Origin: Rhizobium terrae
GTDB taxonomy: Bacteria; Pseudomonadota; Alphaproteobacteria; Rhizobiales; Rhizobiaceae
NCBI RefSeq assembly: GCF_003425685.1
Contig: NZ_QJKM01000003.1
Span: 124,001 to 188,000, forward strand
DNA: 64,000 nucleotides
Reading direction: 5' to 3'
Shown here: positions 14,027 through 58,292 of the stretch, in pieces
Numbering within the stretch: the first letter of the stretch is position 1
Layout of the letters: every line of letters starts with the position of its first letter
The notes under the pieces: model-generated
What the model saw: only the letters and a program-made list of their open reading frames with translations
Told to the model about the DNA's origin: nothing
Databases searched by the model: none
Position numbers and translations under genes: made by a program

Positions 14027-14102
14027 GAGCGCGTAGCTCAGTCGGTAGAGCAACTGACTTTTAATCAGTAGGTCCTGGGTTCGAATCCCAGCGCGCTCAC
14101 CA
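14027..14102 (+). tRNA. tRNA-Lys (anticodon TTT)
   Basis: The 76 bases fold as a standard tRNA. The acceptor stem pairs GAGCGCG with CGCGCTC, the D-arm is GCTC...GAGC, the anticodon stem-loop is ACTGA-CTTTTAA-TCAGT with anticodon TTT, and the T-arm is CTGGG-TTCGAAT-CCCAG. The discriminator A is followed by an encoded CCA. No integrase or duplicated 3' end is seen nearby, so there is no sign that this tRNA has been used as an integration site. Confidence 0.97.
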
Positions 14103-53711: not shown

Positions 53712-53845
53712 GCCGTCCCTCGGCCCGCGAAACATCGGAAATGTCGATAGTTTTGAGGAGCGCAATTCGAACGGCTATTTTAAGCCGGATTTAATTGGCA
53801 ATTGCTAAGGTGTTCGCTCGTGTTGTTGTGAGTGATGCCGCGCCG

Positions 53846-56428
53846 ATGCCATCAAACGCCCTCCCGCGCCTTCTGGACCCAGGATATGGAGAGGATATCG
53901 GTGTCCTGGAGACGGTTTTCGAGGCGGTTCCCCTGGCCGTTGCGGTGATCGACGCCGGCGGTGCGCTTCTGTTTGCAAATTCCCCCTTTCGGCGTGAATG
54001 GATCGGCACAACATCCGATTTTCACGCCTGCATCCATCCCGATGATCGCTGCACGCTCGCAGAAACGCTGCGGCCCATGCGTGTGGACTCCGCTCCGCAG
54101 CATATGGATTTGCGGATAACGGCCCCCGATGGCCCTTTGCGCCGGGTCCTTGCCACGCTGACCCCGTTCACCAGAACTCTGAACGATCGGCTGCTGCTCA
54201 CCGTTCATTTGACGGATGTGACCGAACTGAAGCGGCATGCCGAAGAACTGGCCGAACGCGAAAGCCGCTGGAACAACGCGCTCGTCAGTTCCGTCTCGGG
54301 CGTCTGGGATCACAATTACGCAACCGGCCAGAAATACTACTCGCCGGTCTGGCGCCAGATCCGCGGCATGTCGGCCAGCGATCCACTTGCGGCAAGCACA
54401 CAGGAATGGCTGGAACTCGTGCATCCGGACGACCGGGCACGGGTCATCCATGCGATGGAACGGCAGAATGCCGGCGATCCTGCCTATGCCGTTTTCGAAT
54501 ATCGCGAGCGGCATAAACTCGGACACTGGATCTGGATCGAGTGCCGCGGCGCCTGTGTCGAATGGGATGCGCAGGGCAAAGCTACCCGTGTCGTGGGCAC
54601 GGATACGGACATCACCGCACGCAAGGCCGCCGAGGAGGCGACCGAGAGAATGTCGCGCCGGCTCGACATGGCGCTCGAAATCTCCGGCATCGGCGTCTTC
54701 GAATGTGATTTCACCACAGGCGAGGTCGATTGGGACGAGCGCATGTTCCGGATCTATGGCCTCGACAAGAACGAGGAGGTCTTCGTCGGCGGTCTCTGGG
54801 AAAGCCTGTTGCATCCCGAGGATGCCGACCGCGTGCAGGCCAATGTCGATGTGAACGTGCGCAACAACGAACGTTTCTCCGACCAATACCGCGTGATCCT
54901 GCGGGATGGATCCGAACGGATCGTGCGCACCCGGACGATGCCCTTTGTCGACGGCAATGGCCATCGGAAGATGGTCGGCGCCAACTGGGACGTGACGACG
55001 GACGTGTCACTCCACCGCGAGCTCGAGCGGGCCAAGACGCTCGCCGAGGCACGCAATCGCGAGCTCGAATCCGCCCGCAGCCGCATCGAACACAATGCGA
55101 TGCACGATTATCTGACCGATCTGCCCAACCGGCGCTATCTCGACGAGATGCTCGACCGCGTGGCGGCGGAATGCGCCCGGGAAGGTGGCGGCATCGCCAT
55201 CCTCCACATCGATCTCGACCGTTTCAAGCAGATCAACGATACGCTTGGCCACAGCGCCGGCGACACGATGTTGAAGCACGTCGCCAGGATCCTGAAAGGC
55301 ACGATCCGCAAGGGAGACTTCGTGGCTCGCATCGGCGGCGACGAGTTCGTCATCCTGTCGAAATTCCAGGGGTCGCCCCGCAAACTTTCGAACCTCGCCG
55401 AGCGGATCATCAAGGAACTGCGCAAACCGGTTTCCTACGAAGGGCACGACTGCCGGTTTGGCGCCAGCATCGGGATCGCCTGCGAAACGGCCATGCGGAT
55501 CGATCCGCGCCAGCTCCTTCTCAATGCCGATATCGCGCTCTACCGCGCCAAGAACAGCGGCCGCAACCGCCATGAATTCTTTTCGACGGATACCCAGAAC
55601 GAGATCATCAGCACCAAGAAGATGTCGGACGAGATCCTGCTCGGTCTCGAACGCAATGAATTCGTCCCCTTCTACCAGCTGCAGTTCGACGCGGCGACGC
55701 TGGAGGTCGCCGGCGTGGAGACGCTCGCGCGCTGGATGCATCCCGAACGGGGCATGCTGTCGCCCGACAAATTTCTCGAAACGGCCGAGGAACTGGATAC
55801 CGTCTCGGTGATCGACGGAATGATCTTCGACAGGGCGCTGGCGGATTTCCGCGAGTGGCGCCGGCAGGGCCTGTCAATCCCGAAATTCTCGGTGAACGTC
55901 TCGTCCCGTCGGCTTCACGACCCGTCGCTGGCGAAAAAGCTCAAGAAGCTGAAGATCGAGCCGGGAACGGTATCCTTCGAGCTTCTCGAATCGATCTTCC
56001 TCGATGATTGCGACGAGGAAGTGCGGAAAAATCTGACGCGGCTGAGGAAACTCGGCATCGAGATCGAGATCGACGATTTCGGCACCGGTCATGCGTCGAT
56101 CATCAGCCTCTTGAGGCTCAATCCGAGTGCGCTCAAGATCGACCGGGAACTGGTTCGTTGCGTTCCGCAGTCCCACGAACAGCGAAAGCTGGTGAGTTCG
56201 ATCATCGAAATTGGAAAGTCCCTGAATATTCGCGTGGTCGCCGAAGGCGTCGAAACCACCGACCATATCCGCATCCTGCGCGATCTCGGCTGCGATGTGC
56301 TGCAGGGTTATGCGCTGGCAAGGCCGATGCCGCGCGCCGGGATTTGCGACTTCATCCGGTCCCACCGCTGGCGTCCTGTCGAGGCCGCGCAGCATGAGGT
56401 TCGCGGGAAAACCCCGTTCCGCGGCTGA
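53846..56428 (+). CDS. PAS-GGDEF-EAL cyclic di-GMP turnover protein
   Basis: A protein of about 860 residues without membrane helices. Three PAS-like domains (about 25-130, 145-265, 280-405, with PAC ends such as GTDTDITARKAAEE) are followed by a GGDEF domain (ARIGGDEFVILSK) and an EAL domain. The EAL signature is ETL (GVETLARW) instead of EAL, but the other catalytic residues (VNVSS, DDFGTG, LKID, VAEGVET, LQGYALARPM) are all present, so both activities may be intact. The start is unsure: a TTG at 53795 is also open, neither having a strong ribosome site. Confidence 0.9.
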   Translation: MPSNALPRLLDPGYGEDIGVLETVFEAVPLAVAVIDAGGALLFANSPFRREWIGTTSDFHACIHPDDRCTLAETLRPMRVDSAPQHMDLRITAPDGPLRRVLATLTPFTRTLNDRLLLTVHLTDVTELKRHAEELAERESRWNNALVSSVSGVWDHNYATGQKYYSPVWRQIRGMSASDPLAASTQEWLELVHPDDRARVIHAMERQNAGDPAYAVFEYRERHKLGHWIWIECRGACVEWDAQGKATRVVGTDTDITARKAAEEATERMSRRLDMALEISGIGVFECDFTTGEVDWDERMFRIYGLDKNEEVFVGGLWESLLHPEDADRVQANVDVNVRNNERFSDQYRVILRDGSERIVRTRTMPFVDGNGHRKMVGANWDVTTDVSLHRELERAKTLAEARNRELESARSRIEHNAMHDYLTDLPNRRYLDEMLDRVAAECAREGGGIAILHIDLDRFKQINDTLGHSAGDTMLKHVARILKGTIRKGDFVARIGGDEFVILSKFQGSPRKLSNLAERIIKELRKPVSYEGHDCRFGASIGIACETAMRIDPRQLLLNADIALYRAKNSGRNRHEFFSTDTQNEIISTKKMSDEILLGLERNEFVPFYQLQFDAATLEVAGVETLARWMHPERGMLSPDKFLETAEELDTVSVIDGMIFDRALADFREWRRQGLSIPKFSVNVSSRRLHDPSLAKKLKKLKIEPGTVSFELLESIFLDDCDEEVRKNLTRLRKLGIEIEIDDFGTGHASIISLLRLNPSALKIDRELVRCVPQSHEQRKLVSSIIEIGKSLNIRVVAEGVETTDHIRILRDLGCDVLQGYALARPMPRAGICDFIRSHRWRPVEAAQHEVRGKTPFRG

Positions 56429-56486: not shown

Positions 56487-56801
56487 CTACTGCTTCTCGA
56501 TCTGGGTTACGGCTTCGCTCAGGAGATCGACCATCTTGACGCGGATATCCTGGTCCGAAACCGAAATACCGGCGGCGTCGAAATCGCCACGCAGCTTGCG
56601 GAAGACGTCCTCATCGCCGGCTTCCTCGAAATCGGCGGCAACGACTTCCTTGGCATAGGAGTCGGCATCCGCCTTGCCGAGAAGGCCGGCGGCCCACTGG
56701 CCGAGAAGCTTGTTGCGGCGAGCCAGCGCCTTGAACTTCAGTTCCTGATCCAGGGCGAACTTGTTTTCGAAGGCTTTTTCGCGATCGCTGATGCCGCTCA
56801 T
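56487..56801 (-). CDS. F1-ATPase inhibitor zeta subunit (DUF1476)
   Basis: A 104-residue helical protein of the DUF1476 family, which in Paracoccus and other alphaproteobacteria is the zeta inhibitor that plugs the F1 ATPase. The inhibitory N-terminus MSGISDREKAFENKFALDQE and the four-helix core (RRNKLLGQWAAGLLG, SYAKEVVAADFEEAGDEDVFRKL) are complete. It is in its own minus-strand unit. A decayed second copy lies just upstream in the same direction. Confidence 0.92.
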   Translation of the reverse strand: MSGISDREKAFENKFALDQELKFKALARRNKLLGQWAAGLLGKADADSYAKEVVAADFEEAGDEDVFRKLRGDFDAAGISVSDQDIRVKMVDLLSEAVTQIEKQ

Positions 56802-56958
56802 CTAGGGTCTCCCAAAAGTGGACTCGTGCCTGGACCCCTTAATCAAAACGTAAAGGAAGTGCAATCGGCGACCCAAGGAATCCGACGCCGCCGATCGTGA
56901 AATCTGCGTGACGTGCCATCCCCGGGACGAAGTGTCTCACACATGAGGAGGCACAGTG

Positions 56959-57286
56959 TCAGGCGCGTTCCATTTCCTTTACCAGCTCGATCAGGAGGTC
57001 GCGTGTCTTGGCCTGCAGGTCGTCGTCCAGAACCGGCACGCCGACGGTGTCGAAATCATGACGCAATTTACTGGCTATGTCTTACTGCCTATGTCGTGCA
57101 CAGACTTGCCGTCGAGCGTCGAAGACATCAGATCCTGCGCATGGATGGCAGCATAGACAGCCCCTATGGAGAAGTGACCAAAGACCGAGAAGCTCGTTAC
57201 GGCGCATTTGCACGAAATTGAAAAGCTTCGTCACAGGCGAATTCATCTTCCAGGGCTTCGGCCCGGTCACGAAGAGCGCACATCAT
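56959..57286 (-). pseudogene. Decayed second copy of the DUF1476 / zeta gene
   Basis: Reading the minus strand in three frames gives DRAEALEDEFACDEAFQF, then RRNELLGLW, then AVYAAIHAQD and finally KLRHDFDTVGVPVLDDDL...MERA before a stop, which lines up end to end with the intact zeta (DREKAFENKFALDQELKF, RRNKLLGQW, KLRGDFDAAGISVSDQDI). At least three frame breaks are needed. One is explained exactly by a 14-base tandem duplication (57068-57095): removing one copy restores VHDIASKLRHDFD. The copies are diverged, so this is an old paralogue that has recently lost its frame rather than a fresh duplication. Confidence 0.8.
57068..57095. repeat. 14-base tandem duplication in the zeta pseudogene
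   Basis: TTACTGGCTATGTC followed directly by TTACTGCCTATGTC, one mismatch. The length is not a multiple of three, so it shifts the frame of the pseudogene; one copy removed restores the DUF1476 reading frame at that point. Confidence 0.85.
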
Positions 57287-57527
57287 GGCCCCTGCTTTTG
57301 TTGTTCATTACTTGTCCCGTCCAAGAGGACACTATGATTGCTACGACAAAGATCTCAGAATCCGTGTACCCTGAGGCCGAATGATTCCTGATCGCGCTTC
57401 GTCGAGAGGCCCCTCGCCCACAAAGGTTTCGGAGGCCCGCATTGTGAAACCCGTTCTTTTCCGATAAGGGACCGCTCAAACATCATCCATTGCGCCCCTG
57501 AAGGGCGCCAACAACGAGACAAGAATC

Positions 57528-58292
57528 ATGAATCGTCGCCGCCGTATCTACGAAGGCAAGGCCAAGATCCTGTATGAAGGCCCGGAGCCCGGCACGCTGA
57601 TCCAGTTCTTCAAGGACGACGCCACCGCCTTCAACAAGAAGAAACATGACGTCATCGACGGCAAGGGCGTCCTCAACAACCGCATCAGCGAATACATCTT
57701 CACCCATCTCAACAAGATCGGCATCCCGACGCATTTCATCCGTCGGCTGAACATGCGCGAGCAGTTGATCAAGGAAGTGGAGATGATTCCGCTCGAGATC
57801 GTGGTGCGCAACGTCGCCGCCGGCTCGCTGTCGGAGCGACTCGGCATCGAGGAAGGCATGGTCCTGCCGCGCTCGATCATCGAATTCTACTACAAGTCCG
57901 ATGCGCTGGCTGATCCGATGGTCTCCGAGGAGCACATTACTGCCTTCGGCTGGGCGAACCCCGCCGAGCTCGACGACATCATGGCGCTCGCCATCCGCGT
58001 CAACGACTTCTTGTCGGGCCTCTTCCTCGGCGTTGGCATCCAGCTCGTCGATTTCAAGATCGAATGCGGCCGGCTCTTCGAAGGCGACATGATGCGCATC
58101 ATTCTCGCCGACGAGATTTCACCGGACAGCTGCCGCCTTTGGGACATCGAAACCAAGGAAAAGATGGACAAGGACCGTTTCCGGCGCGACCTGGGCGGGC
58201 TTCTGGAAGCCTATTCGGAAGTGGCTCGCCGTCTCGGCATCATCAATGAAAACGAACCGATCCGCGGGACCGGTCCGGTTCTCGTCAAGTAA
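57528..58292 (+). CDS. purC: SAICAR synthase
   Basis: A 254-residue ligase that adds aspartate to CAIR in purine synthesis. Family motifs: [20 protein letters not shown] at the start, [26 protein letters not shown] near residue 95, [10 protein letters not shown] and [13 protein letters not shown] near residue 200. It heads the plus-strand cluster purC-purS-coiled-coil-purQ. The 230-base leader shows no clear promoter pattern or purine riboswitch. Confidence 0.97.

Follow-up and report, generated by a model that had tools for sequence, protein, structure and literature searches.

A conserved DNA stretch inside a decayed F1-ATPase zeta-subunit gene of Rhizobium terrae, a candidate cis-element of purC

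Results

An intact and a decayed zeta-subunit gene beside purC

The analysed stretch of Rhizobium terrae DNA (64,000 nucleotides, referred to as the window) contains an intact gene for the F1-ATPase zeta subunit (DUF1476, PF07345), zeta-A, and, between this gene and purC, the frameshifted remains of a second one, zeta-B (Table 1). zeta-A scores 133 bits for PF07345, for which the curated cut-off is 25. In the minus-strand translation of 56949-57330, DUF1476-like pieces appear in all three frames, and a tblastn search of the 64-kb window with zeta-A returns the pieces 57283-57203 and 57204-56965 at a joint E of 1e-9, the next-best match after them reaching only E = 0.06. An HMM built from sequences of the genus recovers the remnant by hmmsearch in pieces of 25 and 37 bits, and its limits agree with the former start and stop codons. 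Within this genome zeta-A is the sole match to PF07345 above the curated cut-off, and zeta-B gives none. Judged from these matches, zeta-B is a relic of a PF07345 member and no longer a working member. The initial annotation of this locus had rebuilt a DUF1476 protein from pieces in three minus-strand frames, which the translation and the joint tblastn score bear out; its call of a decayed second copy between zeta and purC agrees with tblastn, the genus survey and the alignments described below. The 14-bp tandem duplication to which it pointed is also real (57068-57095): TTACTGGCTATGTC is followed directly by TTACTGCCTATGTC, which duplicates the CTA side of a conserved block. Measured against the copy of N. 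petrolearium, this 14-nt insertion is private to the present genome among 15 decayed copies.

Behind zeta-A lies a gene (53795-56428) for a protein whose domains we take, from its sequence, to be PAS/GGDEF/EAL-like. At or near the same place, some other genomes have a small hydrolase-like gene (MKASDAEILIVPGYTNSGP...).

Table 1. Features of the zeta-purC region (positions in the window)
Feature	Position	Strand	Basis or remark
zeta-A, intact F1-ATPase zeta subunit gene (DUF1476/PF07345)	56487..56801	-	open frame, 104 aa
zeta-B, second zeta gene, frameshifted relic, copy nearest purC	56959..57286	-	tblastn and genus-HMM pieces
Conserved DNA element within zeta-B, purC sense, GTGTCGAAATCATGACGCAATTTACTGGCTATGTC	57047..57081	+	cross-genome conservation
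Half-site 1, GNCGNANT (GTCGAAAT)	57049..57056	+	five fixed positions invariant in 28/28 defining sites
Half-site 2, GNCGNANT (GACGCAAT)	57060..57067	+	11 bp after half-site 1; five fixed positions invariant in 28/28
CTA	57075..57077	+	invariant in 28/28 defining sites
14-bp tandem duplication	57068-57081 and 57082-57095		13/14 identical
Conserved region before purC, conservation yardstick	57429..57515	+	promoter-like by position
purC, gene adjoining the element	57528..58292	+	TIGR00081, 229.3 bits (cut-off 189.9)

Repeated loss of zeta genes within the genus

The region upstream of purC was compared in 57 genomes of the genus, the present one included, and the copies were assigned to intact, decayed and absent classes by our own sorting of the survey hits. 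The initial annotation had suggested looking for an intact second copy in relatives, and there is one: it is near full-length beside an intact zeta-A in 7 of the 57 genomes and stands alone in 13. Fifteen genomes, the present one among them, combine an intact zeta-A with a decayed zeta-B, 16 have zeta-A only, and six (G004, G005, G014, G025, G031 and G047) have no zeta gene at purC. A genome-wide search found at least one zeta gene in 51 of the 57 genomes; since a control family was recovered in 57/57, the six absences do not reflect a general failure of the search. With the divergent copy B alone in 13 genomes and no zeta in six, paralogues of an ATP synthase subunit have been reciprocally lost within one genus. 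One genome (G011) has an additional zeta gene away from purC (G011:C4:514641-514937, 69.9 bits).

The closest named records include N. tomejilense, N. vignae and N. petrolearium. A zeta gene lies upstream of purC, on the opposite strand, in all 80 named loci, which are mostly alphaproteobacterial by title and were chosen for encoding zeta; zeta-B therefore holds the usual place of the gene, with zeta-A behind it. The zeta tree is built on about 100 columns, and many of its forks are weak; in it the B genes of this genus cluster together and are joined solely by the decayed B of G007, a copy that is still nearly open. Rhizobium sp. FKL33 and Rhizobium sp. G21 (L143 and L144) also have a tandem zeta pair before purC; it falls outside the genus B group, on few columns, and is probably a separate duplication.

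A tree built from purC, purQ and purL places the 15 decayed copies in one group, within which the intact counterpart in G020, taken here as N. petrolearium, is nested. If the intact N. petrolearium copy was inherited and not regained, zeta-B would have died at least four times in this group, a count that depends on two forks with support of 92 and 94. Unordered parsimony needs two changes for the decayed copies, namely a single loss and the return of intact B in N. petrolearium. Inheritance appears likelier than regain because lesions differ between the decayed copies: in a lesion list that depends on the alignment, the 15 have no frame break in common. Four genomes from two lineages appear to lack 32 nt at the 3' end of B, which may be due to the alignment.

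Outside the block, the B copy studied here differs from the intact N. petrolearium copy by 0.26, 0.20 and 0.51 at codon positions 1, 2 and 3. The corresponding values are 0.22, 0.09 and 0.44 for G021, whose B has a single 8-nt deletion, and a flat 0.35, 0.44 and 0.42 for G017, whose decay is older. The third-position excess that remains in the present copy partly supports the recent loss proposed by the initial annotation; the argument that it had drawn from 'protein-level' conservation of KLR-DFD fails, as described below.

According to passages of two published studies, zeta does not act as an inhibitor in S. meliloti, and in some symbionts it is diminished or can be dispensed with (PMC9317440, PMC10469736); a tandem second zeta copy, its repeated loss and the purC neighbourhood do not occur in these passages. 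The published dispensability of zeta fits the repeated loss of zeta genes, and the presence of zeta-A may have left B free to be lost.

A block of zeta-B conserved after the death of the gene

A block of about 31-35 bp (57047-57081) shows only 0-3 differences from the intact G020 copy over 29-30 positions in every one of the 15 decayed copies; its borders were drawn post hoc, since the block had been noticed before testing. Among five lineages with decayed copies, 25-28 of the 30 letters of 57047-57076 are identical, without gaps, in 10 of 10 pairs, whereas the rest of B (56962-57046 and 57091-57283) ranges in the same pairs from 55/235 to 198/278 identical letters, with 12-136 gapped columns. 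The region before purC has 76-80 of 87 letters identical in these pairs. In a conservation profile of 56789-57527, for which lineage weights were set by hand, the block scores 0.87-0.99, equal to the region before purC. In G052, G001, G013 and G045, the block stands nearly alone where the gene once stood, the rest of B being deleted or unalignable. Gene conversion from zeta-A is an unlikely source of this conservation because the block retains letters that are absent from A.

A weaker second conserved stretch is found in the decayed copies at 57094-57124 (0.73-0.81 in the profile), with additional GTCGA words in several genomes, and is perhaps part of a longer element. Three more stretches, 57284-57300, 57354-57365 and 57374-57390, which cover the zeta-B start and Shine-Dalgarno region and its upstream side, are fairly conserved (0.77-0.91). 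They may be a promoter still, or serve purC.

Silent sites of the block are held in living zeta-B genes

We then asked how often pairs of genes with an identical amino acid use the identical codon. In the 8 intact B genes of element-bearing genomes, the ten block codons agree in 191 of 203 such pairs, compared with 541 of 1113 outside the block. This codon identity was equalled in 0 of 100000 random draws of ten columns, and the top ten-codon windows of the B gene are the block window and its neighbour. Control gene sets show little or no codon excess at the block positions: 0.49 in the block codons versus 0.53 outside for 11 B genes lacking the element (a set that excludes G018, which carries it), 0.66 versus 0.55 for 37 zeta-A genes, and 0.65 versus 0.63 for 17 single zeta genes of other rhizobia. 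One codon position of the block uses ATA, TTA, GTA and CTA, so that only the letters TA are held there. These codons are generally rare in such genomes.

The results from dead and living genes bear on two explanations for the block that look to protein. If zeta-B were an ordinary recent pseudogene, the block would simply be the best-conserved protein motif of the family, still undecayed. KLR-DFD is indeed conserved in zeta-A as well, and the present copy retains its third-position excess of differences; however, the block stays where the remainder of B has been deleted or can no longer be aligned, is held at silent sites in eight intact genes and is kept in five of six zeta-less genomes, and we regard this explanation as highly improbable. 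The conservation of KLR-DFD, which the initial annotation had read at the protein level, is instead conservation of the DNA, seen in near-erased copies and at silent sites of intact ones. A recent loss read from the protein motif is ruled out by the silent-site and deletion evidence.

The second explanation, selection on a short gene that overlaps the block in a different frame or on the opposite strand, is scarcely credible unless the frame used differs between genomes. Although several frames are open in single genomes, each of the six meets a stop within the block in one or more of 23 non-coding carriers (23 of 24 were used; G046 was left out). The initial annotation had set against its own reading the prospect of frame breaks common to related strains, with purifying selection on another frame; the 15 decayed copies have no such common lesion, and none of the six frames is open across the block in all 23 carriers.

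Anatomy and distribution of the element

Over 28 sites, the invariant letters read G.CG.A.T at positions 3-10 and again at 14-21, followed by CTA at 29-31. The invariant positions 3, 5, 6, 8 and 10 recur at 14, 16, 17, 19 and 21, forming two direct half-sites that are 11 bp, or about one helical turn, apart. This phasing was matched by 155 of 200000 random placements of the invariant letters, in a test that, like the borders of the block, is post hoc. The main supports for the element are therefore the codon test, the carriers outside the definition of the skeleton and the control windows.

The exact skeleton, GNCGNANT-N3-GNCGNANT, occurs upstream of purC and in purC sense in 33 of the 57 genomes. 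It was defined from 28 of the 33; G002, G006, G012, G051 and G046 stand outside the definition, and the carriers with zeta-A only, while not used in defining the skeleton, had been seen before it was fixed. It was found in none of 171 control windows (600 bp, from the same fetched stretches, either strand) and in none of 69 loci outside the genus, these being the 80 named loci less 11 assigned to the genus. Of the six zeta-less genomes, five retain the skeleton, 223-260 bp before purC. The three examined (G004, G014 and G025) have no zeta-like frame ahead of it; in G004, the end of a hydrolase-like gene lies 302 bp before purC.

Before purC, the exact skeleton is absent in 24 of 57 genomes, and the element is thus dispensable in some lineages. 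At the purC place, 21 of the 57 have no match of at least 9/10 letters: ten genomes with zeta-A only, ten with intact B of the other clade, and G005. Nine of ten skeleton letters are reached in G040, G041 and G037, the match in G037 falling within a living B gene of the other clade; in G024 a 9/10 match lies elsewhere than at the purC place, and G019 stays below 9. A matrix scan was carried out with zeta-A masked, as its KLR-DFD codons mislead in genomes with zeta-A only and in G046. It gave matches at -237 to -267 in five genomes with zeta-A only that form a separate branch, four of them with the full skeleton. The matrix score lies above all 60 shuffles in G012, G040, G041 and G046, but not in G002, G006, G019 and G051 (22, 5, 20 and 6 of 60, respectively). 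In G022, G033 and G037, coding similarity alone puts it above all 60.

Regulation of the zeta genes, and not of purC, could be the role of such an element, which in 18 measured genomes begins at a distance of 198-280 bp upstream of zeta-A. Its retention in five zeta-less genomes, and its position inside B in the genomes that have only B, make this role very unlikely.

Searches of whole genomes with a 20-letter pattern, allowing at most one mismatch, gave 33 sites in 31 of the 57 genomes, 28 of them at purC, and none with the backward control. The exact pattern has no site in 394 genomes outside the genus. With one mismatch it has 25 sites in 24 of these 394, compared with 6 genomes for the backward control, an excess that counts against reading the element as one of purC. 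For the 19-bp core, the present genome has a single exact site and two more that differ at 3 positions. In a scan allowing up to 3 mismatches, it has 24 sites, unsorted, versus 9 with the backward control. Three sites of the narrower pattern GHCGVAWTNNNGHCGVAWT are among the matches listed for this genome, and the two away from purC lie in coding frames that, read by eye, are aminomethyltransferase-like and alcohol-dehydrogenase-like. The 19-mer GACGGAATCCAGCCGGATT recurs in several genomes among the matches listed, its copy here being the one in the aminomethyltransferase-like frame. The matches listed for this genome give no sign of a regulon, the other two sitting in coding frames.

A single-copy chromosomal site, used in recombination or segregation or bound by a nucleoid protein and lying by purC by chance, would suit the single exact site in the present genome, with two others at 3 mismatches to the core, and the variable distance to purC. 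On the other hand, the skeleton is missing before purC in the 24 genomes and 69 outside loci mentioned above, and even at E 10 no record of a plasmid or phage reaches 80% coverage of a 47-bp site query; we consider this alternative unlikely. The whole 731-bp region likewise gave no distant match in plasmids.

The purC side of the element

The element lies 223-479 bp from the purC start codon, a distance that varies among genomes. This is far for a classical activator, and purC has its own conserved region close by; the variable distance would suit DNA looping or a position-tolerant effect better than direct contact with the polymerase. The constancy of purC beside the element is partly a matter of choice, as the regions were fetched as purC-adjoining, and the association with purC was tested only by the genome-wide searches. 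No sigma-70 consensus hexamers of the E. coli type, with 16-18 nt spacing, were found in 56780-57560, a pattern that also misses the region before purC.

Could the block act as RNA, as a hairpin, a small RNA or part of a long purC leader? A 5-bp stem, GCGTC/GACGC, is possible in 17 of the 28 sites, but at least one of its pairs is broken in the other 11, and the conserved register is that of a direct repeat. Two terminator-like sites lie in the region, neither at the block. The region has no Rfam match at the gathering score, two chance-level matches having E values of 2.5 and 4.9, and over the window Rfam finds only a tRNA (14027-14099). An RNA role is thus quite unlikely.

Discussion

Constraint at the DNA level on about 31-35 bp, in living and dead zeta-B copies and in most zeta-less genomes, is well supported. 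The conserved stretch probably has a function of its own beside purC, because many relatives retain it with little change after the surrounding gene has decayed. We put the probability at about 0.6 that the wreck of zeta-B carries a protein-binding cis-element of purC that was embedded in the gene and has outlived it; the control of purC and the binding of a protein at the element are what we infer from the arrangement and placement of its letters.

If the element is such a site, a sequence-specific protein would bind the two half-sites from the same helical face and act on purC, and the binder would be a dimeric or tandem-binding regulator. Cells could do without zeta-B, since they manage with zeta-A or with no zeta gene; many lineages would not have tolerated losing the block. 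A further-reaching version is speculative, and we hold it possible but doubtful: an undescribed purC control element would have arisen in, or been captured by, a duplicated ATPase-inhibitor open reading frame, fixed its silent sites in this clade and survived several independent deaths of the gene. In that version the candidate regulator is possibly a response regulator, purine synthesis may be coupled to the energy state, and in several lineages the reading frame may have lingered partly as a carrier of the site.

The locus bears on some wider points. A pseudogene that still shows a conserved protein motif need not have been lost recently. The F1-ATPase zeta subunit can be duplicated, swapped or lost within one genus. 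Finally, the element is a candidate control site beside a purine biosynthesis gene in rhizobia; neither it nor the tandem zeta pair was found described in the literature searched.

Among known systems, the F1FO-ATPase zeta subunit (PF07345, ATPaseInh_sub_z) accounts for the host genes, zeta-A and the intact B genes of relatives scoring over the family cut-off. The element itself recalls the sites of OmpR/PhoB-type response regulators in having a pair of direct half-sites, spaced by about one turn and placed upstream of a gene. The published passages on CenR give its site as TGA-N8-TGA, an OmpR-family direct repeat, with motifs less than 100 bp upstream of 31 transcription units (PMC9275681). 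Compared with CenR sites as described there, the present element has other letters and sits 223-479 bp from the start codon. Its phasing is like that of OmpR/PhoB-type sites, with the half-sites of this putative site recurring within the 10-11 bp phase, on a comparison made post hoc; no set of target genes emerged for it among the matches listed for this genome.

Regulatory sites inside coding sequence, with codons in dual use, and cis-elements that survive in pseudogenes are both known. The likeness here lies in the silent-site constraint in a live gene and in a constraint that outlives the gene. Within a coding sequence, selection on the protein hides regulatory DNA and makes it difficult to demonstrate. 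The present case offers live, freshly broken, badly decayed and erased host genes for comparison within one genus, and since the site is kept through many of these, the function of the DNA can be separated from that of the protein.
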